This document shows, in pieces, positions 18,080 through 50,729 of a DNA stretch of 64,000 bases. The stretch covers positions 1-64,000 of the forward strand of contig JAIQEY010000010.1 in NCBI GenBank assembly GCA_020073565.1, written 5' to 3'. Made by a program: the position numbers and the translations under genes. The notes under the pieces were generated by a model, which had not been told where the DNA came from, did no database searches, and worked only from the letters and a program-made list of their open reading frames with translations. Source of the DNA: Terriglobia bacterium. GTDB lineage: Bacteria > Acidobacteriota > Terriglobia > Terriglobales > Acidobacteriaceae. The stretch's first letter is position 1, and every line of letters starts with the position of its first letter.

Positions 18080-19754
<1,675 letters not shown>

Positions 19755-34456: not shown

Positions 34457-34516
34457 GTGCTGCGCACGCGGAACGACACAGACCTGAAGGGCAACGCGAA
34501 TAGGGAGTGTGGGGCA

Positions 34517-35854
34517 ATGCGGGGTCACGACTATCTGGACCGGGAGATCGAAACAGCCAGCTTAAAGACGATCCACAAGCTCCAGGAATCCCAGCTGGCA
34601 CGACAGCTCGACTACCTATTTTCCCGTTCGCTTTTTTATCAGGACAAGTTTCGGAGCATGGGAGTGCGGCGCAAGGACTACCGGAAGCTGCGTGACCTGG
34701 CCCGCTTTCCATTTACAAGCAAACACGAGCTGCGCGAAAGCCAGACCGCACATCCACCTTTGGGACGCCACATTGCCGCCGATTGGCGCAACGTGATTCG
34801 GGTGCATAGCTCGACGGGCACCACCGGCGAGCCCAGTTTTGTGGGAATCACCCGCCGCGACGCACGCATGTGGACAAGACTCACCGCGAGATCCTTCTAC
34901 ACCCAAGGTTGCAGGAAGACCGACGCCGTTGTTCACGCAGCGGGCCTCACTCTGTTCGTTGCCGGGTTGACATCCAAGGATGCGATTGAATCGATTGGGG
35001 CCGTTTTTATTCCACTGGGAACGGGAGCGTCGGAGAAAGCGCTGTCCGTGATTCCTCTGCTGGGTGTGAATGCCATGCACTGTACTCCGTCCTATGCGTC
35101 TTACTTCGCTGACTTTGTGCGACGCGAAGCGGGGATCGAGCCGCGAGAACTCGGGTTGAAGAAGTTGTTTTGCGGCGCAGAGCCCGGCGCAGGAATTCCC
35201 GCCGTGCGCGCGAGGATGCAAGAAGATTTCGGCGCGCGCGTCACGGAGGGACTTGGCAACGCGGATATGGCGCCGATCATCTTCAGCGAATGTCCGGAAC
35301 AAGCCGGAATGCATTTCAATGGACCCGACTTCGTAGTTGCTGAAGTGATCGACCCCGACACGGAAGAGAATCTGCCGATCGAAACCGGAGTAACCGGCGA
35401 ACTGGTATACACCAGCCTGCAACGGGAATGCGTTCCTTTATTGCGGTTTCGCACGCGTGACCGAGTTACAGTGCTGGGAACCTCGTGCGCCTGCGAGCGC
35501 ACCGGCTTCCGCCTGCGATGCGTCGGCCGCACCGACGACATGCTCATTGTCCTGGGTGTGAATGTGTTTCCCTCTGCGGTCCGCGACGTAGTCTCCGGCT
35601 TCCATCCTCGGACAACCGGAGAGATTCAGATTCTGCTGGAAAGACCCGGGCCTAAGGTGGATCCGCCGCTGCGAGTTGTGGCCGAGTGCGCAGGTCTCCC
35701 TTCGGCGAACGACGAACTGCAGGGTGAGATCGAGCGAAAGATTCGGGCCACCCTGATTGTGCCCGCAAGGGTGGAACTCGTACCCGCAGGTACACTGCCG
35801 CGCTATGAGATGAAGGGACAGTTGGTAAAACAGGTTGAGCAGAACAAAGTGTAA
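34517..35854 (+). CDS. PaaK-type aryl-CoA ligase (phenylacetate-CoA ligase family)
   Basis: 445 residues from the ATG at 34517 with GGGAG upstream. The adenylate-forming motif is SSTGTTGEPSFVG (about residue 100), the middle has HCTPSYASYFADFVR and KKLFCGAEPGAGIPAVRARM, and the C-terminal domain carries GRTDDMLIVLGVNVFPSAV, the hallmark of PaaK-like ligases. It activates an aromatic acid with ATP and CoA, AMP being released. As the first gene ahead of the Apc-like carboxylase genes, with an operator-like palindrome 60 bases upstream, a 3-oxo-3-arylpropanoate or related acid is the best-guess substrate. Length is normal for PaaK proteins. Confidence 0.9.
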   Translation: MRGHDYLDREIETASLKTIHKLQESQLARQLDYLFSRSLFYQDKFRSMGVRRKDYRKLRDLARFPFTSKHELRESQTAHPPLGRHIAADWRNVIRVHSSTGTTGEPSFVGITRRDARMWTRLTARSFYTQGCRKTDAVVHAAGLTLFVAGLTSKDAIESIGAVFIPLGTGASEKALSVIPLLGVNAMHCTPSYASYFADFVRREAGIEPRELGLKKLFCGAEPGAGIPAVRARMQEDFGARVTEGLGNADMAPIIFSECPEQAGMHFNGPDFVVAEVIDPDTEENLPIETGVTGELVYTSLQRECVPLLRFRTRDRVTVLGTSCACERTGFRLRCVGRTDDMLIVLGVNVFPSAVRDVVSGFHPRTTGEIQILLERPGPKVDPPLRVVAECAGLPSANDELQGEIERKIRATLIVPARVELVPAGTLPRYEMKGQLVKQVEQNKV

Positions 35855-35922
35855 GACATGGTCTCATAGTCAAAGGTTTTGGGTAGACCATCTACAGTTG
35901 AACGAGCGGGTTGGAACGATCC

Positions 35923-37905
35923 ATGTATAGCGTTGACATCGACGTAGGCGGAACCTTGACCGACGGCCTCTTCAGCGACGGCCAACGTACAGTGTGTACG
36001 AAGGTGGATTCCACACCCCACGATCTGACCGTGTGTTTGTTTGACTGCCTGTCGCAAGGAGCGGCCCGGCTGGGTTTCTCCGATCTCGGAAGCCTGCTGG
36101 AGAAGGTGGAACTGCTCCGGTGGTCGACGACGATCACTTCCAATGTGCTGGCGGAGCTGCGCGGCCCCAAGCTTGGTTTGCTCGTAACCCAGGGACACGA
36201 GAAGGATCTGTACGGCAGCGACGATACCAGTGTCCTGCTCAACAAACTAGTAAACGAAAACAATGTCATCGGGATTGATGGGGTGCACGACCCTGCGGTT
36301 TTGAATGCGGTGCGATTGTTGCTCGAAAACGGGGTTCGCCGAATTTGCATCAGCCTGAAAGGGGCGCTGCAGGATCCGGAGTCGGAACAACGGATCAAGC
36401 GGATCATCGATGAACAGTATCCCGACCACTACCTCGGATCGGTGCCGGTGCTCACCGGGAGCGACGTCTGCCAGAACCCGGATGACACGACGCGCACGTA
36501 CTACGCGGTGATCAACGCCTACCTCCACAGCGCGTTGGCGGCCACGCTGTTCAAGGCCGAAGACGAGTTGCGGTATGCGCAGGGATATTCGCGGACATTT
36601 CTCATCAGTCACATCAATGGCGGCGTGGCCGGCGTTTCGAAAACACGCGCCATTGACACGCTCGAGTCCGGACCTGTGCTGGGGATTTACGGCGCAGCGT
36701 ATCTGGCAAAAGCGTACGGCTTGAAGCGCGTCCTCGCCATGGACGTGGGAGGAACCACGGCCAAGCTCGGCATTATCCATGACGGTGAGCCGCTGCATAC
36801 CCAGCAGAGCGATCTATTTGGTATTCCTGTGCGAGTCAACCTGCCGTATCTGCGTTCCATTGCACTGGGCGGTGGCAGCGTGGTCACGGCGCATGAGAAT
36901 GGCGTGCGGCTGGGTCCGGAGAGCATGGGTTCGTTTCCGGGGCCAGCTTGTTATGGGCTCGGCGGAGACAAGGCGACGCTGACCGATGCTTTCGTAACCG
37001 CGGGATTCATTGACCCGGAGTATTTTCTCGGGGGCAGCAAGCACCTGGACTTAGCGGCCGCCCGCGAAGCCATTGACGGCCAAGTGGCGCGTCCCGGAGG
37101 AATTTCCGTCGAACAGGCGTGCGGCGCAATCATCGACACGGCGGATGACATGGTTGCGGGCATGATCACCAAAGCTAGTCAAGAGATCGGCCAAGACTTA
37201 TCGGATCACGTCCTATTTGCCTACGGCGGAAACGGCGGGCTGTTTGCTTGCGGGGTTGCGCAACGGGCCGGGATCCGGACGACCTATCTATTCGACCTGG
37301 GCCCTGTGTTCAGCGCGTTTGGATCGTCGGTGTCGGACATCTGCCATGTCTACGAGCGCTCGTTCCATCTCTTGCTGCGCGACGGCGCGGAAGTAACGCC
37401 GCTCAACCAGATCCTGGAAGAAATGCGCAACCAGGGAGTGCGTGACCTGTTGGGCGAGGGGATTACACCCGAGAATACGGAGTGCTCCGTGGAACTGGAA
37501 GTCTCGCGGGCCGGCGATACGACGCGATGCGTAAAGTCCCTGAAGCCGAGCTTCGACAGCGACGCGGAACTCCGGCGTATTGTTACGCCCGATCTGCCCG
37601 GCGGAAACGCCACCGTGGAATTGGTGCGCATGCGATTGAAGAAAGCAATCTCAAAACCGGCTTTGGTGATGAAGGAAAAAGGGGACCACGACCCGAGCGG
37701 TGCGCAACTCGGCATGCGTAGAGTGCTGCAACAAAGCGGCAAGCAAGAAGCCACCCTCTATCGCTGGGAGTTGTTACGACCGGGCAACGTCGTGCCGGGA
37801 GGATCGATTCTCGAGTCTGCCAATAGCACCTACCTGGTTCCGCCGCGGTGGAATCTGGAGATCGATCATTACGGTAACGCATTGATCAAGCGTGGCGCGA
37901 GTTGA
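35923..37905 (+). CDS. HyuA-family subunit, acetophenone carboxylase ApcA-like
   Basis: 660 residues (about 71 kDa) from the ATG at 35923. The ATPase N-terminus MYSVDIDVGGTLTDGLFSDG (DxGGTxTD phosphate loop) and WSTTITSNVLAELRGPKLGL are HyuA marks; RVLAMDVGGTTAKLGIIHDG is the second ATPase lobe, and VLFAYGGNGGLFACGVAQRA is near 435. The size and place as first of four genes match the 70-kDa alpha subunit of Aromatoleum acetophenone carboxylase. That enzyme makes benzoylacetate from acetophenone and bicarbonate at the cost of ATP. It could instead belong to a hydantoinase or acetone carboxylase. It is separated from the next gene by a 217-base hairpin-repeat spacer. Confidence 0.85.
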   Translation: MYSVDIDVGGTLTDGLFSDGQRTVCTKVDSTPHDLTVCLFDCLSQGAARLGFSDLGSLLEKVELLRWSTTITSNVLAELRGPKLGLLVTQGHEKDLYGSDDTSVLLNKLVNENNVIGIDGVHDPAVLNAVRLLLENGVRRICISLKGALQDPESEQRIKRIIDEQYPDHYLGSVPVLTGSDVCQNPDDTTRTYYAVINAYLHSALAATLFKAEDELRYAQGYSRTFLISHINGGVAGVSKTRAIDTLESGPVLGIYGAAYLAKAYGLKRVLAMDVGGTTAKLGIIHDGEPLHTQQSDLFGIPVRVNLPYLRSIALGGGSVVTAHENGVRLGPESMGSFPGPACYGLGGDKATLTDAFVTAGFIDPEYFLGGSKHLDLAAAREAIDGQVARPGGISVEQACGAIIDTADDMVAGMITKASQEIGQDLSDHVLFAYGGNGGLFACGVAQRAGIRTTYLFDLGPVFSAFGSSVSDICHVYERSFHLLLRDGAEVTPLNQILEEMRNQGVRDLLGEGITPENTECSVELEVSRAGDTTRCVKSLKPSFDSDAELRRIVTPDLPGGNATVELVRMRLKKAISKPALVMKEKGDHDPSGAQLGMRRVLQQSGKQEATLYRWELLRPGNVVPGGSILESANSTYLVPPRWNLEIDHYGNALIKRGAS

Positions 37906-37918
37906 CAGGTTGCGGCGT

Positions 37919-38043
37919 TTCGTATCAGGGCATCGCTTCAGCGATGCCGTGAGCGGTTGGACTTGGTTTCAAGAAACCGTTTTGGGAAGGGCACGGCTTT
38001 TAGCCGTGCCGCTCAGACAGCATAGGAAGTTGGGCTGTAGCCC
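37919..38043. repeat. REP-like tandem hairpins, copy 2 (inside the Apc operon)
   Basis: Begins TTCGTATCAGGGCAT. Four stems follow: GGCATCGC-TTCA-GCGATGCC (37929-37948), GGTTTC-AA-GAAACC (37965-37978), GGCACGGCT-TTT-AGCCGTGCC (37990-38010) and GGGCT-GT-AGCCC (38032-38043). The leader matches copies at 30850 and 42713. The hairpins may tune mRNA stability between ApcA- and ApcB-like genes. Confidence 0.7.
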
Positions 38044-38122
38044 CTGAGGTCAAGACGCAGGCCGCGAGAATTTGTTCGCGACCTCTTAACACAGCAATCG
38101 ACGAGTCGGAGACGCAGTCATC

Positions 38123-38506
38123 ATGGCCACAAGAGGCGATCGTATTCGCATTACTGAGTACCTCGATCTGGATCTGGATCGGGAGCAGTGGCTCTGTAAT
38201 CGCTGCAACCGCGTTCTGGGCCCGGCGCGCGAGAACTACAAGAAGGGACTCCTGCTGTACGACCGGGACCCGCGCGAGGTTCACACTCCGATCGTCGAGG
38301 GCAATTTCAGTTTCGCACCCGATCCGCTGTGGGTGCGAATCGTCGAGTTCTATTGTCCCGGATGCGGCACGCAGATTGAAACCGAGTATCTGCCGCCCGG
38401 TCACCCGATTACCCACGACATCGAGATCGATCTCGAAGCGCTGAAAAAGAGGCTGGAGAGCGGAGAACTCGTCCTGAAGAACCAGCGACTCGAGGCGGCA
38501 CCATGA
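38123..38506 (+). CDS. Zinc-binding small subunit, acetophenone carboxylase ApcB / acetone carboxylase gamma-like
   Basis: 127 residues (about 15 kDa). Two C-x2-C knuckles are present: C25-C28 in WLCNRCNRVLG and C78-C81 in YCPGCGTQIETEY, forming a likely structural zinc site. The size and the position between two HyuA genes match the 15-kDa beta subunit of acetophenone carboxylase; acetone carboxylase gamma is the nearest other family. The sequence between the knuckles (YKKGLLLYDRDPREVHTPIV) is typical of these subunits. Its stop overlaps the next start by ATGA, so the subunits are made in fixed ratio. Confidence 0.85.
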   Translation: MATRGDRIRITEYLDLDLDREQWLCNRCNRVLGPARENYKKGLLLYDRDPREVHTPIVEGNFSFAPDPLWVRIVEFYCPGCGTQIETEYLPPGHPITHDIEIDLEALKKRLESGELVLKNQRLEAAP

Positions 38507-40620
38507 ATTCGATCGACATCGACGTGGGCGGAACCTTCACCGACTTGGTGTTGAACTATGCGGGGCAAACCGTCATTCGCAAAGTTCCGACCACGCCCTA
38601 TGATCTGTCGGTTTGCTTTTCGAATGTGATCCAGGAAGGTGCGCAAGCACTGGGCTTGCGCATGGAGAACCTGCTGCCGGCGGTCGACATGATCCGCTAT
38701 TCCACCACCATAGCTCTGAACCGTCTGATCGAAAGAAAAGGCCCGCGCCTGGGGCTGATCACGACCGAAGGACACGAGGACACGACGCTGCTCGGACGGG
38801 GCGCCCAGTGGATTGACGGGACGCGGGTGCAGGAGCGGCGCAATCTCAGCATTCAGCACAAGCCCGACCCGCTCATTCCTCGCGACATGATCGTCGGAGT
38901 GAAGGAACGCGTGGATTCCGGGGGACACGTGCTCCGCCCGCTGGATGAAAACGATGTGCGTGAAAAAGTCCGGTATCTTGTCAGCCGGGGCGCACGCGCC
39001 TTCGTGGTCTCGCTGCTCTGGGGATTCCTGAATCCTCTCCACGAGCGGAAAGTGAAAGACATCATTCGCAGCGAGTACAAGGAATTCCATATCGGGTACA
39101 TGCCCGTCGTGCTCGCCGGTCAAGTGTCCGGGAAGCTCGGCGAGTACGAGCGGACCATGGCGGCGATTCTCGATGCTTACCTGCAGCGCTCGATGCAGAT
39201 CGAACTCTCCACGTGCTGGGACAAGCTGCGCGATCGCGGGTACAAGCGCTCCTTGTCGATGATCCAGAGTTCCGGCGGCATTGCCGAAGTTTTCAAGACA
39301 GCCGCCAGCCGGACCTTTAACAGCGGACCGGTTTCCGGCCTGATGGGCGCCCACCACGTTGCCAAGTCGCTGGGCGTCCACAACGTGGTGATGGCGGATA
39401 TGGGCGGCACCAGCTTTGACGTTGGCCTGGTGGTCAAAGACAGCGTGCGCAGTTATGACTTTCGTCCCATCATCGACCGCTGGATGGTCGGGATCACCAT
39501 GATCAAGACGCTGTCGATCGGCGCAGGCGGCGGGTCAATCGCGTCACTGAACAAGCTGCTGAAGAACCAGTTGCAAGTGGGACCGCGGAGCGCGGGGTCC
39601 ATGCCTGGGCCGGTGTGTTTCAATCGCGGTGGTACCGAGCCCACCGTGACGGATGCGGATGTTGTGCTGGGCTACATCAATCCTGCGTACTACTACGGAG
39701 GAAAGCTCGCTCTCAACGCGGGCAAGGCAGCGCAATCGATCCGCGAAAAGATCGCCAAGCCGCTCGGGCTGGCTACGGAAGAGGCCGCCGCCATCATCCG
39801 CAAGATTGTGGATGAAAACATGTCGTCGGCCATCATGAAAGAAGTGCACCTGCGGGGTTACAGCCCGGAGGAGTTCATCCTGTTCGCCGCCGGGGGCGCC
39901 GGACCCACCCACGTCGAGGGCTTCCGCGCCGATATTCCGAAGGCCGTCATATTCCCATTCTCGCCGGTGTTTTGTGCCTGGGGATCGTCGACGATGGACA
40001 TCATGCACGTCTACGAACACTCAAAGAAACTGACGTTGATGGAGCCCGGCACCCATCAACTCACGAATGAATTCGAGCGGTTCAACAACGCTGTCTCTCT
40101 GCTGATAGAGAATGCAAAAAGGGATCTGGCGGGAGAAGGCTTGGATCCCGCAGCGGCGAATTTTGTTCTGGAATTGGACATGCTCTATGGAGGCCAGTTC
40201 CACGTGAAGCGGACGTTGTCGCCCTTACTGTTTGTCCGCGGCCAGGAAGACATTCGGTCCATCTGCGACGCCTTCGCCAAGGAATTCAGCGAAGCGTTCA
40301 GCCCATTCGTCGTAAACCCCGACGGTGGCGTTTTCCTAGATACCTTCGTTCTGAAGGCGATTGTTCCGGCCCAGAAGGTGAACTTGCCCAAGCTGCCGCT
40401 CGAAGGCCACAGTCCTGAGGCCGCAAACAAGGGCTCGCGTATGGTGTACTGGCCCGACAAAAAAGATTTCTGCATTACTGGGATTTATTCGTTCGAGAAA
40501 CTGCGGCCCGGCAACATGACTCACGGGCCCGCCATTGTGGAAGGAGAGTACACAACTCTGGTCGTTCCCGAGCCGCTGCGATTTTCCATCGATCAGTACG
40601 GCCTGGGAATTCTGGAGTAG
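38503..40620 (+). CDS. HyuA-family subunit, acetophenone carboxylase ApcC-like
   Basis: 705 residues, second HyuA paralogue of the operon. The N-terminus MNSIDIDVGGTFTDLVLNYA is the ATPase phosphate loop, then YSTTIALNRLIERKGPRLGL, VMADMGGTSFDVGLVVKDS and the C-terminal FILFAAGGAGPTHVEGFRAD. It is somewhat smaller than the 87-kDa Aromatoleum ApcC but holds the same place. Two different HyuA subunits plus one HyuB is the arrangement of acetophenone carboxylase, whereas acetone carboxylase has a single HyuA. The ATGA overlap with the 15-kDa gene and the 13-base gap to the HyuB gene show tight co-expression. Confidence 0.87.
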   Translation: MNSIDIDVGGTFTDLVLNYAGQTVIRKVPTTPYDLSVCFSNVIQEGAQALGLRMENLLPAVDMIRYSTTIALNRLIERKGPRLGLITTEGHEDTTLLGRGAQWIDGTRVQERRNLSIQHKPDPLIPRDMIVGVKERVDSGGHVLRPLDENDVREKVRYLVSRGARAFVVSLLWGFLNPLHERKVKDIIRSEYKEFHIGYMPVVLAGQVSGKLGEYERTMAAILDAYLQRSMQIELSTCWDKLRDRGYKRSLSMIQSSGGIAEVFKTAASRTFNSGPVSGLMGAHHVAKSLGVHNVVMADMGGTSFDVGLVVKDSVRSYDFRPIIDRWMVGITMIKTLSIGAGGGSIASLNKLLKNQLQVGPRSAGSMPGPVCFNRGGTEPTVTDADVVLGYINPAYYYGGKLALNAGKAAQSIREKIAKPLGLATEEAAAIIRKIVDENMSSAIMKEVHLRGYSPEEFILFAAGGAGPTHVEGFRADIPKAVIFPFSPVFCAWGSSTMDIMHVYEHSKKLTLMEPGTHQLTNEFERFNNAVSLLIENAKRDLAGEGLDPAAANFVLELDMLYGGQFHVKRTLSPLLFVRGQEDIRSICDAFAKEFSEAFSPFVVNPDGGVFLDTFVLKAIVPAQKVNLPKLPLEGHSPEAANKGSRMVYWPDKKDFCITGIYSFEKLRPGNMTHGPAIVEGEYTTLVVPEPLRFSIDQYGLGILE

Positions 40621-40633
40621 CCAAGCAGAAGTT

Positions 40634-42691
40634 ATGCCCATACCAACCTTGGCGGAAAAGTTGCAGTGGCTGAAGCCGGCGCCGGCTACCGACTATGAGA
40701 AGGGATGTGTCCAAACGATCAAGCACGGCAGCTACGAGATCGGCGTGCAGATCACCAATGACATTCTCGACGAGGCCATGGAAGTCTTCGTCCGCTCGTC
40801 GCGCAGCTATTTTGGCGTCTCCGGCGATTCCATGGTGGCCATCTTCACTGCCGGTGGAGACCTGATCAATGGCTCATGCGGCACCTATCTCCACGCCATC
40901 ATTCAGCCCATCATCATCAAGTTCATTTTGAAGTACTACCAGGAGAACCCCGGCATCCGCGACGGAGATATTTTCTACACCAACGACGCGCTCTACGGCG
41001 GAATCCACAATCCCGATCAGGTGGCGATCATGCCCGTGTTTCACGACGGCAGGCTGATTGCCTGGGCGACCGCCGCCTTGCATACAACGGAGACAGGAGC
41101 GATCGAACCGGGAGGCATGCCGGTTAGCGCCAAGTCGCGCTTCGAAGAAGGATTGAATATGCCGCCGATCAAGATCGGCGAGAACTTTAAGTTACGGAAT
41201 GACTTTCTGGAGTTCTATTCGGTATACGGCCTGCGCGCGCCCGCCATGTTCATTTCTGATTTGCGGGCCCGCTGCACCACTGCCGACCGCGTGCGTGTCC
41301 GCTTGCTGGAACAAATCGAAAAGCGAGGCGTCGAGTTCATCGTCGGCCTGATGCGGAAGATGCTGGACGTCGCCGAGGCCGGCGCATTCCAGAAAGTGAA
41401 GTCTCTGCCCGACGGCAAATTTCGCAGCGTGGTATTCAACGATGCCATCGGTTGGACCCCAGCCCTGGTCCGCGCCTGCTTCCTCACGCTCACCAAGGCG
41501 GGCGACCGCCTAACGTTCGACTTTGAGGGCACCTCGCCCGAGAACCCTTCCTCCTATAACGTTCACACGCAGGCGGTCGTGGGACACATTGCCAACTTCA
41601 TGTACGAGTACTTCTTCCACGATTTGCCCATTTGCAGCTCCACATTCGCGCCCATCGATTTTGTCTTCCCGGAAGGCATCATTTTGAATCCCGACAAACT
41701 GGCGGCGACCAGTTGCTGCGTGTACATCGGTATGCAGACGCGCTGCGCAACTCACAACTGCTTCGCCAAAATGATGTACGCGACCAATCTCTGGACGCAG
41801 GTGGCCTCGGCGCCCGGAAGCCAGCACACGGCACAAATATGCGCCGGCCATTCGCAGTGGAATCTCGCCGTCTCCGATGTGCTCTCGTTCTCGCTCAACA
41901 CGCAGGGGCAAGGCGGGCGCGCCGCCGATGACGGGATGGATGCTTATGGTTTCGCGTGGTGCGCCTTCGGACGCGCTCCCGATTGCGAACAAGTGGAAGG
42001 AGAGTTGCCCATCACCGTCAACCTGTCGCAGCACTGGAAGGATTCCTCCGGTCCCGGCCTCCACCGCGGCGGCTCCGGCGCTGTGCAGCAGTGGATGATT
42101 CACAAAGTGCCGAACATGCTGTCTCTGTGTATGGGCAATGGCAGCAAAGTACCGCTCGGCCAGCCCTTGTTCGGCGGGTATGCTTCGGCGCCGATCCCCG
42201 GTATCAGCGTATGCAAAACCGATATGCTCGTACGCATGCGAGAAGGCGATCCGGAATTGACTCTGGACCTCCGTGAACTTCTGGCAGGCCGCTCCACGCA
42301 TGGGGATTGGACGTTTGAACTGATCGCCCGCACTCCGAAGATGTACAGCGAGGGTGACCTGCTCTTCGGCTTCAGCGGAGGCGGACCAGGCTACGGCGAT
42401 CCGCTGGAGCGGGCACCGGAGAGTGTGGTCGTGGACTTGAAGAAGAAGATCATCTCGGAATGGACGGCAACCAATGTCTACCGTGCAGCCTTCGATACCG
42501 AAAGGGGCAAAGTGGACGCCGCACGAACGGACGAACTGCGGGCGGCCGAGCGCAAGGCCCGGCTGGCGCGCGGAAAGCCCTACGACGATTTTGTGACGGA
42601 ATGGAGCAAGCAATCACCGCCGCAGGAAATTCTGCAGTATTACGGTTCCTGGCCAGATGCTAAAACCACCGGCCCAGTCTTCCGGCCTTAG
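40634..42691 (+). CDS. HyuB-family subunit, acetophenone carboxylase ApcD-like
   Basis: 685 residues (about 75 kDa) from the ATG at 40634, since the open frame upstream only overlaps the previous gene. HyuB landmarks are EIGVQITNDILDEAMEVFVR, GDIFYTNDALYGGIHNPDQV, a central AALHTTETGAIEPGG and the C-terminal LFGFSGGGPGYGDPLERAPE. The HyuB subunit carries the carboxylation site and works with the HyuA ATPase subunits. Size and order fit the 75-kDa subunit of acetophenone carboxylase. A hairpin-repeat spacer (132 bases) follows, then the UroD-like gene. Confidence 0.88.
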   Translation: MPIPTLAEKLQWLKPAPATDYEKGCVQTIKHGSYEIGVQITNDILDEAMEVFVRSSRSYFGVSGDSMVAIFTAGGDLINGSCGTYLHAIIQPIIIKFILKYYQENPGIRDGDIFYTNDALYGGIHNPDQVAIMPVFHDGRLIAWATAALHTTETGAIEPGGMPVSAKSRFEEGLNMPPIKIGENFKLRNDFLEFYSVYGLRAPAMFISDLRARCTTADRVRVRLLEQIEKRGVEFIVGLMRKMLDVAEAGAFQKVKSLPDGKFRSVVFNDAIGWTPALVRACFLTLTKAGDRLTFDFEGTSPENPSSYNVHTQAVVGHIANFMYEYFFHDLPICSSTFAPIDFVFPEGIILNPDKLAATSCCVYIGMQTRCATHNCFAKMMYATNLWTQVASAPGSQHTAQICAGHSQWNLAVSDVLSFSLNTQGQGGRAADDGMDAYGFAWCAFGRAPDCEQVEGELPITVNLSQHWKDSSGPGLHRGGSGAVQQWMIHKVPNMLSLCMGNGSKVPLGQPLFGGYASAPIPGISVCKTDMLVRMREGDPELTLDLRELLAGRSTHGDWTFELIARTPKMYSEGDLLFGFSGGGPGYGDPLERAPESVVVDLKKKIISEWTATNVYRAAFDTERGKVDAARTDELRAAERKARLARGKPYDDFVTEWSKQSPPQEILQYYGSWPDAKTTGPVFRP

Positions 42692-42712
42692 CAGGCCGCG
42701 AAACAATAGGAG

Positions 42713-42780
42713 ATTCGTATCAGGTCATTGCTTTATCGATGACGTAACCCGCACGTTTTCAACCGCCCCTTTAGGGGCGG
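42713..42780. repeat. REP-like tandem hairpins, copy 3 (inside the Apc operon)
   Basis: Begins ATTCGTATCAGGTCAT, followed by an imperfect GTCAT/ATGAC stem at 42724-42743 and a perfect CCGCCCCT-TT-AGGGGCGG stem at 42763-42780. It sits between the HyuB and UroD-like genes. No T-run follows, so a classical terminator is unlikely. Confidence 0.65.
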
Positions 42781-42823
42781 TGGTCTGCACCCTTACTGCT
42801 TCGGCAAGCGGTTAGGAGGACTG

Positions 42824-43825
42824 GTGGCTGAACTGACACCGCGAGCGATGATTCGGTCAATGCTGCAAGGCGATCGGCTGCCGCGTCCCTTGCTGCTGCC
42901 CATCGTCTTCGCGCTCGGCGCCAGGCTCGAGAATCTGTCCCCGCGCGCGTTCCTCGGAAATGCCACCAGGATCGCCAGCTCGCAACGCCAAATCCGCAAC
43001 GTGTTGGGGCTCGATGGCGTCACTTGCTATTTCGATCCATATTTGGAGGCTGAAGCTTTCGGTTGCGAGCTCACGTGGAGCGCAGATGAAATGACCCGCG
43101 TACTTCGTCCGCGCGGAGGAAATGCGACGGACTTGCGAGAACAACTGCGAGCGCCGGGAGAGATTGCGGGACGAGGCCGGATTCCTGTGGCCTGCGATGT
43201 GCTGCGGCGGCTGAAAGTGATGTTGCCGGGGGAACCGGCGTTGATGGCGGGTGTGTCCGGACCATGCGCTCTCGCCGACCTGCTGGTGGGAAGCGCGCGC
43301 ACCGCCGAATCTTCACGTCCTGAGGAAGTTGAGTTCGCCGCGGAACTAACGGCGTCGGTTTGCACGAGCTTCCTTGAGTCCGACGCTAACGTGATCTTCA
43401 TTCGCGAGGACGGCGCGTCCATCCAGAATTGCAAGCAATGGGCGGAGTTGTTGTCCCCGATTGTGAACGCCATCCGTTTCTATGAGGCGTTGCCCGTACT
43501 TCTCTTTGATGGCTTTCCGCCAGAAGCCGCGCTGACTGCATTGGAAGCAGGTTGCGAGGGTGTGATTTGTCCGAGCGCGATCGACTTGGCATCGGGAAGA
43601 ATCCTGTCGGCATCTGCCGCTTTGCCATCCGCGTATTTGCCCGAGACATGCTTGTTGCCAGGCCAAGACGAAGATGGCGCTCTGGGCAGATTATTGCAGG
43701 CCCTGGCACGGGACACCAACCTGTGTCTGTTAACGTCTCAGCGAGATGTTCCGAAAGACGTAGATGTGAAGTCCTTGGCCAGCTTGTTCAGCGGTCTGCG
43801 CAGTGTGTCGCGAGTCATGGCTTGA
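42824..43825 (+). CDS. UroD/MtaA-fold protein, possible epsilon-type subunit of the carboxylase cluster
   Basis: 333 residues (about 35 kDa) from a GTG with AGGAGG five bases upstream. The pattern PRAMIRSMLQGDRLPRPLLL, then VTCYFDPYLEAEAFGCELTW, a PALMAGVSGPCALADLL motif and the ALPVLLFDGFPPEAALTALE region, resembles the uroporphyrinogen decarboxylase / MtaA superfamily. The HxC zinc motif of MtaA-type methyltransferases would fall at LFDG and is absent. Its mass and its place after apcABCD-like genes recall the 34-kDa ApcE subunit; I cannot confirm the homology. It is 24 bases upstream of the thioesterase. It may be a non-catalytic or novel carboxylase accessory. Confidence 0.65.
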   Translation: MAELTPRAMIRSMLQGDRLPRPLLLPIVFALGARLENLSPRAFLGNATRIASSQRQIRNVLGLDGVTCYFDPYLEAEAFGCELTWSADEMTRVLRPRGGNATDLREQLRAPGEIAGRGRIPVACDVLRRLKVMLPGEPALMAGVSGPCALADLLVGSARTAESSRPEEVEFAAELTASVCTSFLESDANVIFIREDGASIQNCKQWAELLSPIVNAIRFYEALPVLLFDGFPPEAALTALEAGCEGVICPSAIDLASGRILSASAALPSAYLPETCLLPGQDEDGALGRLLQALARDTNLCLLTSQRDVPKDVDVKSLASLFSGLRSVSRVMA

Positions 43826-43849
43826 TGACGGGGAGGTTTGATTCACAAC

Positions 43850-44317
43850 ATGTTTGTCAATCGCAAGCGCATCTTGATCGAATTCGGGGATTGCGATCCC
43901 GCTGATATCGTTTTTTTCGCCAACTATTTTCGTTGGTTTGACGACTGCACAAGCGCCCTTTTTGCAGCCGTTGGACTCCCGATTCGCGATCTCTTCAAGT
44001 CCTACGGTGTGGTGGGTATTCCCATTGTGGACGCCCAGGCGCGCTTCATCACGCCGTCCACGTATGGCGATGAACTGGAAGTTGAGTCTCGCGTCACGGA
44101 ATTTCGCAAGAGCAGTTTCGTCATTACCCACAAGTTCTACAGGGATGGGCAACTTGCGCTGGAAGGCCAGGAGACGCGGGTGTGGGCGGCCGCTCACCCG
44201 ACCGAGTCGAACCGAATGAGAGGTGTTCCTCTGCCCAGGGAAGTGATCGAGAAACTTTCGCAGAACGCAAAACGGGCCGTCCGTAAGGCGAAACGAGGGG
44301 CGCGTTCCCACAACTGA
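43850..44317 (+). CDS. 4-hydroxybenzoyl-CoA thioesterase-type hotdog protein
   Basis: 155 residues. The N-terminus FGDCDPADIVFFANYFRWFDD is the 4-hydroxybenzoyl-CoA thioesterase active site, with the catalytic Asp at D16, and a hotdog fold follows (helix CTSALFAAVGLP, then GDELEVESRVTEFRKSSFVI). It hydrolyses aroyl-CoA to the acid and CoA. The start is chosen at the ATG (43850); a TTG at 43838 lies nearer to the GGGAGG site. Located 24 bases after the UroD-like gene, it could release the free aromatic acid, e.g. 4-hydroxybenzoate, for PobA. Confidence 0.88.
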   Translation: MFVNRKRILIEFGDCDPADIVFFANYFRWFDDCTSALFAAVGLPIRDLFKSYGVVGIPIVDAQARFITPSTYGDELEVESRVTEFRKSSFVITHKFYRDGQLALEGQETRVWAAAHPTESNRMRGVPLPREVIEKLSQNAKRAVRKAKRGARSHN

Positions 44318-44351
44318 AATAGTGTGGGCAGCAGAGTTACCGAGGAGCAGA

Positions 44352-46487
44352 ATGAGCCGGCTTATCGACGCACGAATTGCGCTTGTCTTGACCGTGGCGA
44401 TGTCCTGCGCCTGCAACCGGTCCGCAACCAAGGAATCTCAGCTGCAATCGGCAGGGCCAGAAAACGTGACCGATGCGAGGCTGGTCAACGCCGAGCGTGA
44501 ATCAGGCAACTGGCTAACCTATGGGCGCACCTACAACGAGCAGCGCTTCAGTCTACTCATGGATATCTCCGACCGAAACATCAACCAACTGGGGTTAGCT
44601 TGGTCGTTCGATTTGGATACGCGCCGCGGGCAGGAAGCAACGCCGATCGTCGTGGATGGCGTCATGTACTTCACCTCGGCCTGGAGCAAGGTGTTCGCGC
44701 TGAATGCCGCCACCGGCGCGCTGCTCTGGTCCTACGATCCCAAGGTTCCACCGGAGTGGGGAGTGAACGCGTGTTGCGATGTTGTCAACCGGGGCGTCGC
44801 GCTTTGGAAGGGGAAGGTCTACTTCGGAACGCTGGACGGAAGGCTGGTCGCGCTCGACGCCGCCACCGGCAGGCTGGTGTGGGAACAACTGACCATTGAC
44901 CGGGACTGGCGCTATACCATCACGGGCGCGCCGCGCATCGTCAAGGGGAAGGTGCTCATCGGCAACGGCGGCGGTGAGTTCGGTGTACGCGGCTATGTTT
45001 CCGCATACGATGCGGAAAGTGGCCAGATGGTTTGGCGGTTTTATACCGTGCCCGGCGATCCTTCGAAACCTTTCGAAAGTCCGATTCTGGCGCAAGCGGC
45101 GAAAACGTGGTCGGGCGAATGGTGGAAGGTTGGAGGCGGCGGGACGGTTTGGGACGCCATCGTCTACGATCCCGAACTCGATCTCTTGTATGTAGGGACC
45201 GGTAACGGCGGACCGTGGAACAGCAAGATCCGTAGCCCGAAGGGCGGCGACAATCTTCTTACCTGCTCCATCGTAGCTCTGCGGCCAGAGACGGGAGAAT
45301 ACGTGTGGCACTATCAGGAAGACGCAGCCGACGACTGGGACTTCGATTCGTCGGAACAGATCATCCTCGCTGATATCGCAATCGACGGCAAGACGCGAAA
45401 AGTGCTGCTGCACGCTCCGAAGAACGGTATCTTCTATGTGATCGACCGGGAAAACGGAGCTCTCATTTCGGCGAAACCCTACACGTTCATCAACTGGGCT
45501 ACTGGAGTGGATCTGAAAACCGGGCGCCCAATAGAAACGGATATTGCCCACTACCCCGGAAAGAATCCGCCTCCGATTGTTCCTGGGCCATTAGGTGCCC
45601 ATAGCTGGCAACCTATGTCTTATAGCCCAATCACCGGACTAACTTACATCCCCGTGAACGATGTTGGGTTCAAGTTCAAGTCGGCAGATACTTTCGCATT
45701 CAAGAAGCTGGCGGCGAATTACGGTATTGATACGGTGGCGGCGGGAATGCCACAGGATCCGAACATCAAAAAGGCGATTCTCGACACCGTCAGGGGCAAA
45801 CTGGTCGCGTGGAATCCGGTGCAGCAAAAGCAAGCATGGGCAGTCGAGCGGCCTGGACCATGGAATGGCGGAACTCTTGTCACCGCTGGAAATCTCGTCT
45901 TCGAGGGCACGGCTGCGGGGCGTTTTGAGGCGTATCGCGCCGATACCGGCGAGAAGGTGTGGTCGTTTGACGCGCAGACAGGCGTAATGGCTGGTCCTGT
46001 GACCTATATCGTTAATGGCGAACAGTACATCGCAATTCTCGCGGGATGGGGTGGAGTGTTTCCGCTGGCGACGGGCGAGGTTTCGTTCAAGTCCGGCCGC
46101 GTGCGGAATGTCAGCCGTATGCTGGCCTTCAAACTGGGCGGGAAGTCAAGTTTGCCTGCGCTTCCAGAAGTGGAAGAGCCAGTGCTGAAGCCGCCGCGTT
46201 CGGTGGCTAACACTGCCACGATTCACCGCGGCGAAGCGCTCTTCCAACGTTTCTGTGCTTCCTGCCATGGCGACGTGGCAGTCAGCGGAGGAGTGCTGCC
46301 GGATCTTCGCTATTCCAGCACGCTGGCGAATGATCGGTGGTTCAAGATCGTACGCGACGGGGCTTATCAGTCGCTAGGAATGGTTTCGTTTGCGAAGGAA
46401 GTTTCGCAGAAGAATGCTGCGGACATTCGAGCCTATGTCATTTTTCGAGCGAACCAAAGCAAAACAAATCAAATGCTGCACAAGTAG
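44352..46487 (+). CDS. PQQ-dependent alcohol dehydrogenase with fused cytochrome c domain (quinohaemoprotein)
   Basis: 711 residues from an ATG with GAGGAG upstream; the signal ends in MSCAC, perhaps a lipobox. An eight-bladed PQQ propeller covers about residues 45-585, with the vicinal disulphide pair CC in VNACCDVVNRGVAL, repeated AxDxxTGxxxW tryptophan-docking motifs, and the catalytic Asp region DDWDFDSSEQI. A C-terminal haem c domain has CASCH at about 635 with a Met ligand in LGMVSFA. It oxidises primary or secondary alcohols in the periplasm. In this context, 1-arylethanols giving aryl methyl ketones would be the logical substrates, which is an inference. Confidence 0.9.
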   Translation: MSRLIDARIALVLTVAMSCACNRSATKESQLQSAGPENVTDARLVNAERESGNWLTYGRTYNEQRFSLLMDISDRNINQLGLAWSFDLDTRRGQEATPIVVDGVMYFTSAWSKVFALNAATGALLWSYDPKVPPEWGVNACCDVVNRGVALWKGKVYFGTLDGRLVALDAATGRLVWEQLTIDRDWRYTITGAPRIVKGKVLIGNGGGEFGVRGYVSAYDAESGQMVWRFYTVPGDPSKPFESPILAQAAKTWSGEWWKVGGGGTVWDAIVYDPELDLLYVGTGNGGPWNSKIRSPKGGDNLLTCSIVALRPETGEYVWHYQEDAADDWDFDSSEQIILADIAIDGKTRKVLLHAPKNGIFYVIDRENGALISAKPYTFINWATGVDLKTGRPIETDIAHYPGKNPPPIVPGPLGAHSWQPMSYSPITGLTYIPVNDVGFKFKSADTFAFKKLAANYGIDTVAAGMPQDPNIKKAILDTVRGKLVAWNPVQQKQAWAVERPGPWNGGTLVTAGNLVFEGTAAGRFEAYRADTGEKVWSFDAQTGVMAGPVTYIVNGEQYIAILAGWGGVFPLATGEVSFKSGRVRNVSRMLAFKLGGKSSLPALPEVEEPVLKPPRSVANTATIHRGEALFQRFCASCHGDVAVSGGVLPDLRYSSTLANDRWFKIVRDGAYQSLGMVSFAKEVSQKNAADIRAYVIFRANQSKTNQMLHK

Positions 46488-46558: not shown

Positions 46559-48211
46559 CTACGGGCTTTCCCAAACTTCCGTCCGGAAGAAATTGATGCT
46601 GACCGTCGCCAGTTCTGACGGTGGAAACTTGCATTGGTGTCGTTCGTCCGCCCAGAGGCCTGCTTCCCGGGCGCAGTCGAGGAACAACGGTAACTCAACC
46701 AAGTATTGGTCGGAGAATCCGTGCGTGCCGTCGTAAGCGACCGCGGGAGTGTGCTCCAGGTGTTTTGCCGTCACTTCGGGAGGCAGCGTGTGGAGTTCCA
46801 GGACGAGCAGTCCGAAACGGCCGACATAGGGCGCCCATCGGCGCAGGTGACGAACCAGATTTTCTTCCAGTTCGTCGCAGGGAATTTCTTCTCCCAGATG
46901 AGCGAACGCTCCCGTTGATCTTCCCGGACGCGCCCCGGATGCGTAGTTCGCCGGAGGAATATAAGGGCGGTTGTGGTCGAGGAACGACCGGACGTGGAGG
47001 AGATCGTGAATGTCCAGGTCCAGGGCTTCAAGGTCGCTGGCTAACTGCGCCGGACGATTGATGTCGCCCGAGATCACGTGATAAACGGGAATGCCGGCCT
47101 TACGCAATGTTTGCTTGGCTACGCGCCTTGCTACTTTGTTGAAATCCGCGCCCACCAGGACGAGGGGATCCTTGTCCAGAACCTGGCCGCGTACGGTGTG
47201 GTTCTTCACTACGAAGTAGAGATGCTCAAGAAAAGTAGCGTCGCCACATCCCATGTCGCAAATCCCGCGAGGTTGCAGATTGAGCGAGCGGTTGAAGATC
47301 TCGATGATGATCTCGTCGACTTTCTTGAAGTAAGTGCGGTGGGCGCCGCCGCTTCCCCACACGTTCATCCCGCGATTAACGAGCAACTCAACGCCGCTTT
47401 CGTCGAGTCGCGAGATCCGTGCATTGCCAAACAGCAGCGTGCTCAGGTTGTCGAAGAGAGGCAGATAGGAAATGGTCACGCCATAAGAGGTTGCAATCTG
47501 GGCGGCGTAGCGGCCGCATGGGGTGAGGCTCACAGTGTTTTTGTCGCGCACGATCCAGCCTTGGGCGGCGAGCAGATCGAGGATGTACGCGAAACTGGCG
47601 CGATTGGCGGAAATCGAGTTCACGTCCACGGGCCCCTGCTCGAGTTGAGCAAGGATGCCGCCGCGCGCCAGAGCCACCATGGTTGGACCAATGATCATGC
47701 CATCGAGGTGCCTGCAAATCTGATTCCGTACCTGTTCGGCGACTGGGTCCGATTGCGGTTGCAGGCCCCATTGTTCCTTCGACCGGCGAACCAGTTCTTG
47801 CAAAGAAGGGAGCATGGGGCGATCGGATTCGCCGAACAAAAAGTCTTCGAGGAAAATTGCTTTTGAGACGAAGGAGAGCACTTCGCCGTAGAGGAGCGGC
47901 GCCATGCTGAGGGCGATCTTCCCTTCGTGAGTCAGCGAGTAGCACGGCGGGCGGCCATGTTCGACCCGCTGCCGCAGCCAACCGCACGATGACAGCAGGC
48001 GAAGAGCCGCACGCAGGTAGCCCCGATTGGCGCGGGTCTGATCAAGGACATGATCGAGTTCGACCCACTCGTCGCCCGCCTCGAACAGATCGAAGACGCG
48101 CCGGTCCCACAGCGCTTTGACAGTGGGCGCCAGAACAACGCCGGCCAGGTGTCCGAAAACGACGGCGCGGATCTGCGCTTTTTCCGCGTCGCTGATGGAT
48201 GGAGTCCCCAT
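46559..48211 (-). CDS. SAM-dependent methyltransferase with two winged-helix-like N-terminal segments
   Basis: 550 residues. The SAM motif I is ICDMGCGDATFLEHLY (about residues 315-330), with later LVGADFNKVARRVAKQTL and DIHDLLHVRSFLDHNRPY. Before it, two similar segments look like winged helices of the O-methyltransferase dimerisation type: APTVKALWDRRVFDLFEAGD...YLRAALRLLSSCGWL and GPTMVALARGGILAQLEQGP...FAYILDLLAAQGWIV. The duplication makes it longer than a usual O-methyltransferase (350-400). The MetE-like gene on the same strand ends 12 bases upstream, so the two form an operon. The acceptor substrate is unknown, perhaps an aromatic hydroxyl. Confidence 0.75.
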   Translation of the reverse strand: MGTPSISDAEKAQIRAVVFGHLAGVVLAPTVKALWDRRVFDLFEAGDEWVELDHVLDQTRANRGYLRAALRLLSSCGWLRQRVEHGRPPCYSLTHEGKIALSMAPLLYGEVLSFVSKAIFLEDFLFGESDRPMLPSLQELVRRSKEQWGLQPQSDPVAEQVRNQICRHLDGMIIGPTMVALARGGILAQLEQGPVDVNSISANRASFAYILDLLAAQGWIVRDKNTVSLTPCGRYAAQIATSYGVTISYLPLFDNLSTLLFGNARISRLDESGVELLVNRGMNVWGSGGAHRTYFKKVDEIIIEIFNRSLNLQPRGICDMGCGDATFLEHLYFVVKNHTVRGQVLDKDPLVLVGADFNKVARRVAKQTLRKAGIPVYHVISGDINRPAQLASDLEALDLDIHDLLHVRSFLDHNRPYIPPANYASGARPGRSTGAFAHLGEEIPCDELEENLVRHLRRWAPYVGRFGLLVLELHTLPPEVTAKHLEHTPAVAYDGTHGFSDQYLVELPLFLDCAREAGLWADERHQCKFPPSELATVSINFFRTEVWESP

Positions 48212-49432: not shown

Positions 49433-50539
49433 GTGTACCGCAGTGACGTAGTAGGGAGCCTGTTACGCCCGCCTTACCTGAAGGAAGCGCGAGAACTGCA
49501 TGCGGCAGGCAAAATCTCGGATGCCGCTTTCAAACAAGTCGAAGATCGAGCGGTGGACGAATGCGTTGACCTGCAGATTCGCACTGGCATTGAGGTGCTC
49601 ACCGACGGAGAAGTACGCCGCTACGCCTTCTACGGGCACTTGATCGACGCGGTCGAGGGCTTCGACAAATACGGCGGCTGGGCAATTCCGTTTCGCGATG
49701 AGAAGGGTGAGCAATTAGTCCTGCCGCGCCCGGTAGTGGTTTCGAAGTTACGCCGCAAACGGCCCTTGTGCGCGGAGGAGTTCACCTACGTCCGCGCGCG
49801 CACCAAGCACCCCGCCAAAACCACCATGATCAGCGCGCAGCAGGCCGCGGCCTATTACGACAGCAACAAGTCTTCTGGATCTTATGCCACGGTTGACGCC
49901 TACTTGGCGGACCTCGTCGGGATCTTGCGGGATGAGGTGGAGGAACTGATCCGGCTGGGCTGTACTTACATTCAGATCGACTCTCCGCAATACACCGCAC
50001 TCCTGGACCCGGACTTGCGCGAGGGATACCGGAAGCGCGGCAATGATCCCGATCGTTTGCTCGACTTGTCTATCGAGATGGACAACGCCGTAGTCGGAGA
50101 TCATCCCGGCATCACCTTCGGCCTGCACCTCTGCCGCGGAAACAACCAGAGCAAGTTCTACGCCGCCGGCGACTACGGCCCGATCACAAAAGTGTTTCGC
50201 AATACAAAGTTCCACAGATTCCTGCTGGAATATGACGACGAGCGTTCCGGCGGTTTCGAGCCGCTGCGCCAGATGCCAGCAGACCGAACGGTTGTGCTCG
50301 GTCTGATCAGTTCCAAGAAGCCAGACTTGGAGAGCAAGGACGAACTGAAGCAACGGATTGAGGCCGCATCTGCCTTTGTTCCGCTGGAACGGCTTGCCCT
50401 CAGTCCGCAGTGCGGTTTCGCCTCCACCATGGAAGGCAATGCCCTTACGCCTGCGGACCAGGAGGCGAAACTCCGCTTGGTGGCCGAAACAGCGCAGGAA
50501 GTCTGGGGCAAGTCCGTCTCACTGGCGCACAGCGCCTGA
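49433..50539 (+). CDS. Second MetE-like zinc methyltransferase
   Basis: 368 residues from a GTG at 49433, which has GGGAGG six bases upstream. N-terminus MYRSDVVGSLLRPPYLKEAR, TDGEVRRYAFYG, then zinc ligands H232 and C234 (GLHLCRGN), E266 (LLEYDDERSG) and C327 (SPQCGF). Such single-barrel proteins (often named methionine synthase II or YxjG/YxjH-like) handle methyl transfer to a thiol. It is the divergent partner of the MetE-like gene at 48224, with a 207-base shared promoter region without a recognisable SAM or cobalamin riboswitch. Its location within an aromatic cluster suggests methyl-group disposal from methoxy-aromatics, unproven. Confidence 0.85.
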   Translation: MYRSDVVGSLLRPPYLKEARELHAAGKISDAAFKQVEDRAVDECVDLQIRTGIEVLTDGEVRRYAFYGHLIDAVEGFDKYGGWAIPFRDEKGEQLVLPRPVVVSKLRRKRPLCAEEFTYVRARTKHPAKTTMISAQQAAAYYDSNKSSGSYATVDAYLADLVGILRDEVEELIRLGCTYIQIDSPQYTALLDPDLREGYRKRGNDPDRLLDLSIEMDNAVVGDHPGITFGLHLCRGNNQSKFYAAGDYGPITKVFRNTKFHRFLLEYDDERSGGFEPLRQMPADRTVVLGLISSKKPDLESKDELKQRIEAASAFVPLERLALSPQCGFASTMEGNALTPADQEAKLRLVAETAQEVWGKSVSLAHSA

Positions 50540-50696
50540 GAAGTTAGGTGGGTTAGGTTTTTTTTCACGTAACGATGCGCCGCGGGTCGCGGCGCCGGAT
50601 GTTCGAACGGGTGGGGATGGTAGGAATCCAGACCTAGCTGGAGGCGTAAAGCTCTGTGTTCTGCGGTTGGAAAAAGGCTGTTATGTTCGCAAAATC

Positions 50697-50714
50697 GAAC
50701 GTACGTTCGCTCGA
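50697..50714. promoter_or_regulatory. TetR-type operator, site B (second receptor operon)
   Basis: GAACGTACGTTCGCTCGA. With the C at 50696 the core CGAACGTACGTTCG is a perfect 14-bp palindrome. It lies 15 bases before the AGGAGG-led receptor start. It fits the CNAACGNNCGTTNG pattern that I recall for Thermus PaaR. Confidence 0.65.
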
Positions 50715-50729
50715 ATGACAGGAGGTCCT

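Follow-up and report, generated by a model that had tools for sequence, protein, structure and literature searches.

An acetophenone carboxylase-type operon of Acidobacteriota that probably acts on 4-hydroxyphenyl methyl ketones

The stretch of DNA analyzed here, called the window, comprises 64,000 nucleotides (positions 1 to 64,000 of the forward strand of contig JAIQEY010000010.1, assembly GCA_020073565.1) of a Terriglobia bacterium of the phylum Acidobacteriota. It carries an operon of the acetophenone carboxylase (Apc) type within a row of eight genes, from a ligase gene to a dehydrogenase gene, all located on the + strand between positions 34457 and 46487. The first encodes a PaaK-type AMP-forming coenzyme A (CoA) ligase of 465 amino acids (aa) (34457 to 35854, with an alternative ATG at 34517), with a Pfam AMP-binding_C_2 domain and a match to PDB entry 4r1l. 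Its score with the NCBIfam PaaK model was 252.9 bits, under the cut-off of 646.3, and it is proposed to be an aroylacetate-CoA ligase. Four carboxylase genes follow, given here with their matches in 5L9W, the acetophenone carboxylase of Aromatoleum: apcA (35923 to 37905; alpha', 660 aa; chain b, 585.6 bits, 44.9% identity), apcB (38123 to 38506; gamma, 127 aa, with a four-Cys zinc site; chain C, 172.3 bits), apcC (38503 to 40620; alpha, 705 aa; chain B, 1001.1 bits, 61.6% identity) and apcD (40634 to 42691; beta, 685 aa; chain A, 849.8 bits, 53.1% identity). Alpha' and alpha are proposed to be a bicarbonate kinase and a ketone kinase, respectively. The fifth gene, apcE (42824 to 43825), starts with GTG, has AGGAGG upstream and encodes epsilon, a 333-aa protein of the uroporphyrinogen decarboxylase (UroD) fold that matched 9FOU by both sequence and fold. 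Next comes a 4HBT-family thioesterase (43838 to 44317) that keeps the GDCDPA motif; its best PDB match was 1bvq (83.3 bits), and it is proposed to be a 4-hydroxybenzoyl-CoA thioesterase. The row ends with a pyrroloquinoline quinone (PQQ)-dependent alcohol dehydrogenase carrying a C-terminal cytochrome c domain (44322 to 46487; TIGR03075, 666.8 bits over the cut-off of 480.05; PF13442), proposed to oxidize an aryl-ethanol to the ketone. It contains a DWDFD motif, the second Asp of which corresponds to the lanthanide-type signature. From the ligase to the thioesterase, the gaps between successive genes were 68, 217, -4, 13, 132 and 12 bases. The region between apcD and apcE (42692 to 42823) contains an inverted repeat, CCGCCCC-TTTA-GGGGCGG, possibly an attenuator or a processing site. 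An earlier, sequence-only reading had placed a PaaK-type ligase before the operon and an aroyl-CoA-type thioesterase after it, and both open reading frames (ORFs) were confirmed at the positions given above.

The nearest named relative at this locus, L015, is a contig of a Terriglobia (Acidobacteriota) metagenome-assembled genome (MAG) that is collinear with the window over 20 kb, from a thiamine pyrophosphate (TPP) enzyme to an AprA MT2-like methyltransferase, with protein identities of 75 to 96%. The ratio of nonsynonymous to synonymous substitution rates (dN/dS) against L015 was 0.04 to 0.05 for alpha and beta, 0.08 to 0.14 for the ligase, alpha', gamma, the thioesterase and the PQQ dehydrogenase, and 0.24 for epsilon, and therefore each of the eight genes is under purifying selection. 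The host genome is a draft of 6.1 Mb in 123 contigs, with a completeness of 99.97 and a contamination of 6.02%. No 16S rRNA was found in it by a search, and its taxonomy is therefore based on the relatives. Contamination or misassembly of the operon was judged unlikely because L015 is collinear and the base composition is even along the window.

The best solved-structure match of each of ApcA to ApcD was the corresponding chain of 5L9W. The E-values of the PDB sequence matches were 1.1e-174, 4.8e-50, 2.2e-300, 1.7e-254 and 9.5e-16 for ApcA to ApcE, and the best non-Apc chains reached 226.9 (alpha'), 33.6 (gamma), 339.4 (alpha) and 162.6 (beta) bits. These subunit-by-subunit matches to 5L9W and 9FOU bore out the order and sizes (HyuA, 15-kDa protein, HyuA, HyuB, 35-kDa protein) that had been likened to Apc from the sequence. 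The 15-kDa protein, described then as a C-x2-C zinc subunit, is gamma, with its four-cysteine site at Cys 25, 28, 78 and 81. Phylogenetic trees were built with 28 of 77 beta (HyuB) rows and 50 of 165 HyuA rows. The beta subunit of the window fell in a 15-row clade with Aromatoleum (support 100/100), and alpha and alpha' each joined their Aromatoleum counterpart in a clade of 16 rows (SH-aLRT, the Shimodaira-Hasegawa-like approximate likelihood ratio test, 100). The acetone carboxylase (Acx) and hydantoinase references, as well as the other HyuA and HyuB proteins of the genome, were found outside the Apc clades, which ruled out an assignment to either of these types. A check of the trees had been set beforehand, and the grouping with hydantoinases or oxoprolinases that it looked for was not seen; the separation from acetone carboxylase and hydantoinases proposed earlier was thus upheld for alpha, alpha' and beta. 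Beta and gamma are also shorter than in acetone carboxylase (685 aa versus 776 in 5svb_A and 127 aa versus 168 in 5svb_C), in line with the difference of roughly 50 aa for each that PMC5214803 gives. The ATP motifs are kept in both alpha and alpha', and the fingerprint KERVDSGG, of the pattern R/KERiDsxG, is found in alpha and missing from alpha'. Gene order, tree branch, lengths of beta and gamma, motifs and epsilon all agree with the Apc type as described in PMC5214803. Neither the single HyuA, alpha-beta-gamma order and clade of acetone carboxylases nor the two-subunit composition and clade of hydantoinases and oxoprolinases applies to the operon. Judged by order, tree, length and motifs, the operon is that of an Apc-type enzyme.

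A gamma search in 396 sampled genomes of the phylum gave a strong match in the host genome alone (196.6 bits) and weak matches (24 to 38 bits) in five others. In four of these five (L004, L005, L006 and L007), a single ORF encodes a HyuB-type beta fused to a gamma domain at its C-terminal end. Related loci were then sought in one genome of each species with an alignment of four gamma sequences, and the best 80 of 463 relatives were used, a sample biased towards gamma subunits resembling that of the window. Twenty-one of the 80 loci are from Acidobacteriota (MAGs L015 to L033, L035 and L088), and the other 59 are from Myxococcota, Chloroflexota, Dormibacterota, Actinomycetota, Bacillota, Pseudomonadota, Thermodesulfobacteriota and archaea. 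The window grouped with the Acidobacteriota rows in the trees. The Myxococcota locus L034 was sister to the acidobacterial rows in beta and nested among them in alpha'; in a separate, earlier beta tree it was also sister to the 21 acidobacterial rows (SH-aLRT 100). Two loci titled "MAG: Klebsiella pneumoniae" (L073 and L093) carry apc genes and are probably misnamed bins; in that earlier beta tree, which did not include L073, L093 clusters with MAGs of environmental Gammaproteobacteria. A second apcB/C/D-like set was present just upstream of the first in L043 (Paenibacillus naphthalenovorans) and L079 (a Desulfobacula MAG).

The fifth, 35-kDa protein, earlier noted as a possible E subunit, is ApcE. 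At an E-value of 0.001 or better, its only PDB sequence matches were 9FOU (61.3 bits) and a methylcobalamin:coenzyme M methyltransferase. An AlphaFold model built from 42 epsilon sequences had a mean predicted local distance difference test score (pLDDT) of 88.9 and a predicted template modeling score (pTM) of 0.91, and a fold search with this model ranked three 9FOU chains first, followed by a methyltransferase (4AY8 and 4AY7) and uroporphyrinogen decarboxylases. In the 42-row alignment, Pro26, Thr48, Gly146, Pro147, Gly187 (Asp in the window) and Glu195 were conserved in at least 90% of the rows; in a wider alignment of 59 rows, they were kept in 51, 51, 49, 52, 45 and 44 rows, respectively, so that the conservation signal is real in these alignments and not absolute. 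Pro26, Gly146-Pro147 and Glu195 are located at or beside the C-terminal ends of the predicted strands 23-25, 139-145 and 190-196. In TIM barrels, the active site lies on the face at the C-terminal ends of the strands. We infer that epsilon keeps a ligand cleft and is more than a clamp. An iterated epsilon profile (E < 1e-8) had a match in 60 of the 62 loci with apcD and at least 600 bases beyond it, 18 of the 80 loci not being assessable. The epsilon gene adjoins the end of apcD in 57 of the 60, lies about 1.1 kb further on in L041 and L048, and is upstream in L091. No epsilon was found in the other two assessable loci, L072 and L079, the latter judged on its upstream paralogue. Outside the 80 loci, epsilon was clear in the plasmid locus L012, weak in L013 (E 3e-5) and not seen in L014. 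In 2017, epsilon was described as absent from some operons and as having few close orthologues (PMC5214803). Its wide occurrence in the sampled loci extends that remark and fits a role in the reaction itself. A literature search on Aromatoleum, acetophenone and uroporphyrinogen decarboxylase found no paper.

Candidate genes for later steps were found elsewhere in the window and the genome. A pobA gene for 4-hydroxybenzoate 3-monooxygenase is located on the - strand (18083 to 19252; TIGR02360, 569.7 bits over the cut-off of 538.7), with a PDB match across all 390 residues, and is the sole above-cut-off match in the whole genome. The window PobA has Tyr, Ser, Arg and Tyr at the spacing of Tyr201, Ser212, Arg214 and Tyr222 of this enzyme. 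The genome also encodes PcaH (363.6 bits over the cut-off of 296.4), with a second intradiol gene alongside. Models of BoxB and BenA gave matches below cut-off only in the genome; one was a 396-aa BoxB relative at 168 bits, versus a cut-off of 499.1. The best solved match of the thioesterase, 1bvq, is a 4-hydroxybenzoyl-CoA thioesterase, and the variant 1lo9 differs at the Asp of GDCDPA. A BktB-like beta-ketothiolase gene lies on the - strand (57507 to 58745; TIGR01930, 378.7 bits over the cut-off of 240.55), and its product matched at 67 to 74% the thiolases beside apc in six acidobacterial loci.

The neighbors of apc were counted at the related loci by blastp (E 1e-5, at least 30% identity) in flanks of up to 10 kb, several contigs ending early. 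A PaaK-type ligase was found in 8/21 acidobacterial and 22/59 other loci, and a PRK12582-type ligase in 6/21 and 4/59; neither type was found in seven of the 21 acidobacterial loci within the available stretches. The corresponding counts were 6/21 and 1/59 for a thiolase, 7/21 and 0/59 for the thioesterase, 2/21 and 0/59 for PobA, 6/21 and 2/59 for a PQQ dehydrogenase, and 11/21 and 1/59 for an isochorismatase-like gene. Without the identity limit, 14 of the 59 other loci had a thiolase relative, so that the acidobacterial clade is not alone in having a thiolase beside apc. In L025, the genes for a TonB-dependent receptor, a PaaK ligase, an isochorismatase-like protein, ApcABCDE, a thiolase, a thioesterase and PobA (541.9 bits, over cut-off) follow one another on one strand. 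L026 has the same arrangement, with a PRK12582-type ligase between apcE and the thiolase instead of PaaK, and its PobA gene (450.8 bits) runs off the available stretch. An unnamed ORF lies between the receptor gene and the following gene in each.

Residues of the alpha pocket were compared across the loci. Rows were assigned to alpha or alpha' by gene position, and two of those placed in alpha, L052_8007 and L056_8100, are labeled ApcA and most likely belong to alpha'. Six of the seven pocket residues named in PMC5214803 are identical in the window (Leu81, Phe281, Asn282, Pro285, Ile333 and Thr345), and at the seventh, Lys335 stands where 5L9W has Gln344. This position is Lys in all 21 acidobacterial alpha rows, in the window and in L034. 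It is Gln in 35 of 56 other rows, where two Leu come from the two probably misplaced rows; without these, Gln is kept in 35 of 54 non-acidobacterial rows, with L034 as the lone Lys. Position 81 is variable, and the other five positions are identical in all 21 acidobacterial rows. In alpha', the window and all of the acidobacterial rows scored (19/19) retain Glu248, Asp274 and Lys281, which are found in 39, 57 and 39, respectively, of 57 non-acidobacterial rows. A para-hydroxylated ketone is favored because PobA and PcaH score over their cut-offs, BoxB and BenA do not, the thioesterase is of the 4-hydroxybenzoyl-CoA type, L025 and L026 line up the genes in order, and Lys occupies position 344. 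The substrate thus appears more likely to be a 4-hydroxyphenyl ketone than acetophenone.

We propose that the operon probably encodes an Apc-type carboxylase for 4-hydroxyphenyl methyl ketones, with a downstream route to ring cleavage. The analysis shows the genes together with their homology, placement in trees, synteny, purifying selection and retention of named residues, whereas the chemistry, the compound acted on and the sequence of steps are inferred from homology and context. The PQQ dehydrogenase may oxidize a secondary alcohol to the 4-hydroxyphenyl methyl ketone, presumably 4-hydroxyacetophenone or a ring-substituted relative. Alpha would form the enol phosphate of the aryl methyl ketone, and alpha' would convert bicarbonate to carboxyphosphate; beta and gamma would complete the core, and the UroD-fold epsilon would join for turnover. 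PMC5214803 describes alpha and alpha' as ASKHA kinases that presumably generate these two intermediates, with sites about 50 Å apart and epsilon required for activity; the Apc type is characterized by an ATP-dependent, biotin-independent ketone carboxylation with 2 ATP per turnover (PMC5214803). Biotin-independent, ATP-dependent carboxylation would then yield an aroylacetate, to be activated with CoA by the PaaK-type ligase. The thiolase would split aroylacetyl-CoA into 4-hydroxybenzoyl-CoA and acetyl-CoA, and the thioesterase would release 4-hydroxybenzoate. Finally, PobA would hydroxylate it to protocatechuate, PcaGH would cleave the ring, and the products would enter the beta-ketoadipate route.

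Several observations weigh against this proposal. All five subunits score below the equivalog cut-offs of the NCBIfam Apc models (NF042960 and NF042974-NF042977), with 687.1/1250, 197.3/250 (gamma, NF042974), 1090.8/1500, 898.4/1500 and 74.6/450 bits (epsilon, NF042977) for ApcA to ApcE. Acetophenone carboxylase is therefore not warranted as the exact function name, and identical function is not implied; of the earlier description as acetophenone carboxylase-like, the family stands and the exact function does not. The thioesterase match is modest (83 bits), its best NCBIfam model being the generic YbgC/FadM family at 54.8 bits, below cut-off. PcaGH is encoded on contig C31, possibly from another organism given the contamination of 6.02%. 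Only two acidobacterial loci show PobA and seven the thioesterase within the flanks. In the window, pobA precedes the operon by 15 kb and the thiolase gene follows it by 13 kb; both are encoded on the opposite strand, and their link to apc therefore rests on the relatives. Alpha has 28 clade-specific columns, so that finding a single one at the seven named pocket positions is not significantly more than expected. In 11 of the 21 acidobacterial loci, apcA is immediately preceded by an isochorismatase/RutB-like gene (for example, L016 7248-7982; two of the other ten loci end inside apcA); this gene is unexplained by the pathway and recalls amide chemistry. The MetE-like genes near some apc loci could point to methoxylated substrates.

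These last points bear on other explanations. The enzyme could be a strict acetophenone carboxylase acting on the unsubstituted ketone as in Aromatoleum, with benzoyl-CoA or benzoate degraded elsewhere. The same gene order, the 44.9 to 61.6% identity to Aromatoleum alpha', beta and alpha, and the six identical pocket residues agree with this; however, the genome lacks BenA and BoxB at cut-off, Gln344 is replaced by Lys in the window and the whole acidobacterial set, and part of the clade is accompanied by PobA and a 4-hydroxybenzoyl-CoA-type thioesterase, and we consider it unlikely. It is quite improbable that the enzyme is instead an ATP-dependent amidohydrolase or carboxylase whose substrate is a different one, possibly with nitrogen, and that it works with the RutB-like hydrolase of the relatives. 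Pfam confirms the family of this hydrolase in the three copies scanned, the positions of the D-K-C triad are kept in four aligned copies, and hydantoinases are among the relatives of HyuA and HyuB. However, no RutB-like ORF was found in the window or in L015, whereas the operon has all three of the subunits missing from hydantoinases (alpha', gamma and epsilon), with the named residues kept, and an aroylacetate fits the ligase, the thiolase and the thioesterase. Methoxylated hydroxyphenyl ketones such as acetovanillone and acetosyringone, with O-demethylation by accompanying methyltransferases, would account for the MetE-like genes that the window and four relatives (L019, L022, L029 and L030) have near apc and for the methylene-tetrahydrofolate reductase in L019. 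Yet the MetE-like proteins scanned score as relatives of methionine synthase, below cut-off, and none of the proteins scanned was identified as an aromatic O-demethylase. The substrate of PobA is 4-hydroxybenzoate rather than vanillate. This explanation is very improbable.

Other genes of the window were also noted. An acyl-CoA ligase, Lig2 (55100 to 56713, - strand; PF00501), is found beside apc in L016 and L022 too, as is a MarR/HxlR-type regulator that adjoins the thiolase (58742 to 59200, - strand; NF047364, 95.8 bits, under the cut-off of 175). A TonB-dependent-receptor-like outer-membrane protein (50358 to 54377, + strand; PF25183) has homologues near apc in 12 of the 21 acidobacterial loci. 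A stand-alone AprA MT2-like methyltransferase (46559 to 48211; PF23525) adjoins the operon and is also beside apc in L015, L033 and L035. A benzoylformate decarboxylase-type TPP enzyme (27042 to 28655; NCBIfam 615.2 over the cut-off of 493) adjoins a gluconate-dehydrogenase-3-like gene and a GMC oxidoreductase gene.

Searches by title and abstract, with subscription journals mostly outside their reach, found no paper on an Apc operon of Acidobacteriota or on Apc with hydroxyacetophenone. Within the reach of these searches, three things are new: the clade in Acidobacteriota, a hydroxyphenyl ketone as its likely substrate, and the finding that epsilon is widespread. The type of chemistry is known. 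At the writing of PMC5214803, the Apc branch held a single biochemically characterized enzyme. With its defined predicted substrate, a candidate thiolase and a hypothesis that ties specificity to one residue, the clade offers a way to test how enzymes of this family select their substrates. If true, the route would give a common soil group another aerobic pathway in which an aromatic compound is carboxylated. More tentatively, all these elements may hold together: aerobic Acidobacteriota would break down 4-hydroxyphenyl (lignin-type) ketones by a biotin-free Apc route, a candidate thiolase and a 4-hydroxybenzoyl-CoA thioesterase would share one operon (as in L025), the pocket would carry a clade-diagnostic Gln-to-Lys switch, and a UroD-fold epsilon with a conserved cleft would be a near-universal working part of the Apc family; this combination is slightly less likely than not.

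Among known systems, the ATP-dependent hydantoinases, oxoprolinases and caprolactamase (6YRA and 7HK5) have alpha and beta homologous to those of the window and lack gamma, alpha' and epsilon; the reference hydantoinases form a separate clade (caprolactamase was not in the tree). The acetone carboxylase AcxABC (5SVB and 5M45) shares homologous alpha, beta and gamma, but has one HyuA, the order alpha-beta-gamma, longer beta and gamma, and neither alpha' nor epsilon, and falls in a clade of its own. In Rhodococcus rhodochrous GD02, the Hpe system phosphorylates the phenol by HpeHI and carboxylates with the biotin-dependent HpeCBA, after which a CoA synthetase and a beta-ketoacyl-CoA hydrolase act (PMC9618137). 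It resembles the proposed route as an aerobic carboxylation pathway from 4-hydroxyacetophenone via 4-hydroxybenzoate to the beta-ketoadipate pathway, and differs from it in the carboxylase, which in the window is a biotin-free enzyme of the Apc type, and in the thiolase predicted here. General Pfam scans of 40 window ORFs found no biotin carboxylase or HpeH/I-like kinase, the other ORFs and the genome not being searched. The Hpe authors were aware of no further aerobic pathway for aromatics that includes a carboxylation (PMC9618137); a 2026 paper (PMC13101465) mentions neither acetophenone carboxylase nor carboxylation. An Apc core operon has also been reported in the soil actinobacterium Paraconexibacter (PMC11737030). 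The closest system is ApcABCDE of Aromatoleum aromaticum EbN1 (5L9W and 9FOU), which is described as highly specific for acetophenone, also accepting propiophenone and fluoroacetophenones, with 4'-hydroxyacetophenone taking another pathway and the thiolase "so far unknown" (PMC4729919). A. aromaticum uses the Apc route on acetophenone both with and without oxygen (PMC4729919), so that, of the earlier picture of Apc in an aerobic soil bacterium, the family held and the novelty of aerobic use did not. The two systems have in common the five subunits, their order, the alpha, alpha' and beta clades, the ATP and zinc motifs and a CoA ligase gene adjoining the operon, which is bal in Aromatoleum. 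The identity is 61.6, 53.1 and 44.9% for alpha, beta and alpha', whereas epsilon is far more divergent; Gln344 of the Aromatoleum alpha is Lys in the window, and the window has the ligase gene 5' of apcA and the thioesterase and the PQQ dehydrogenase after apcE.

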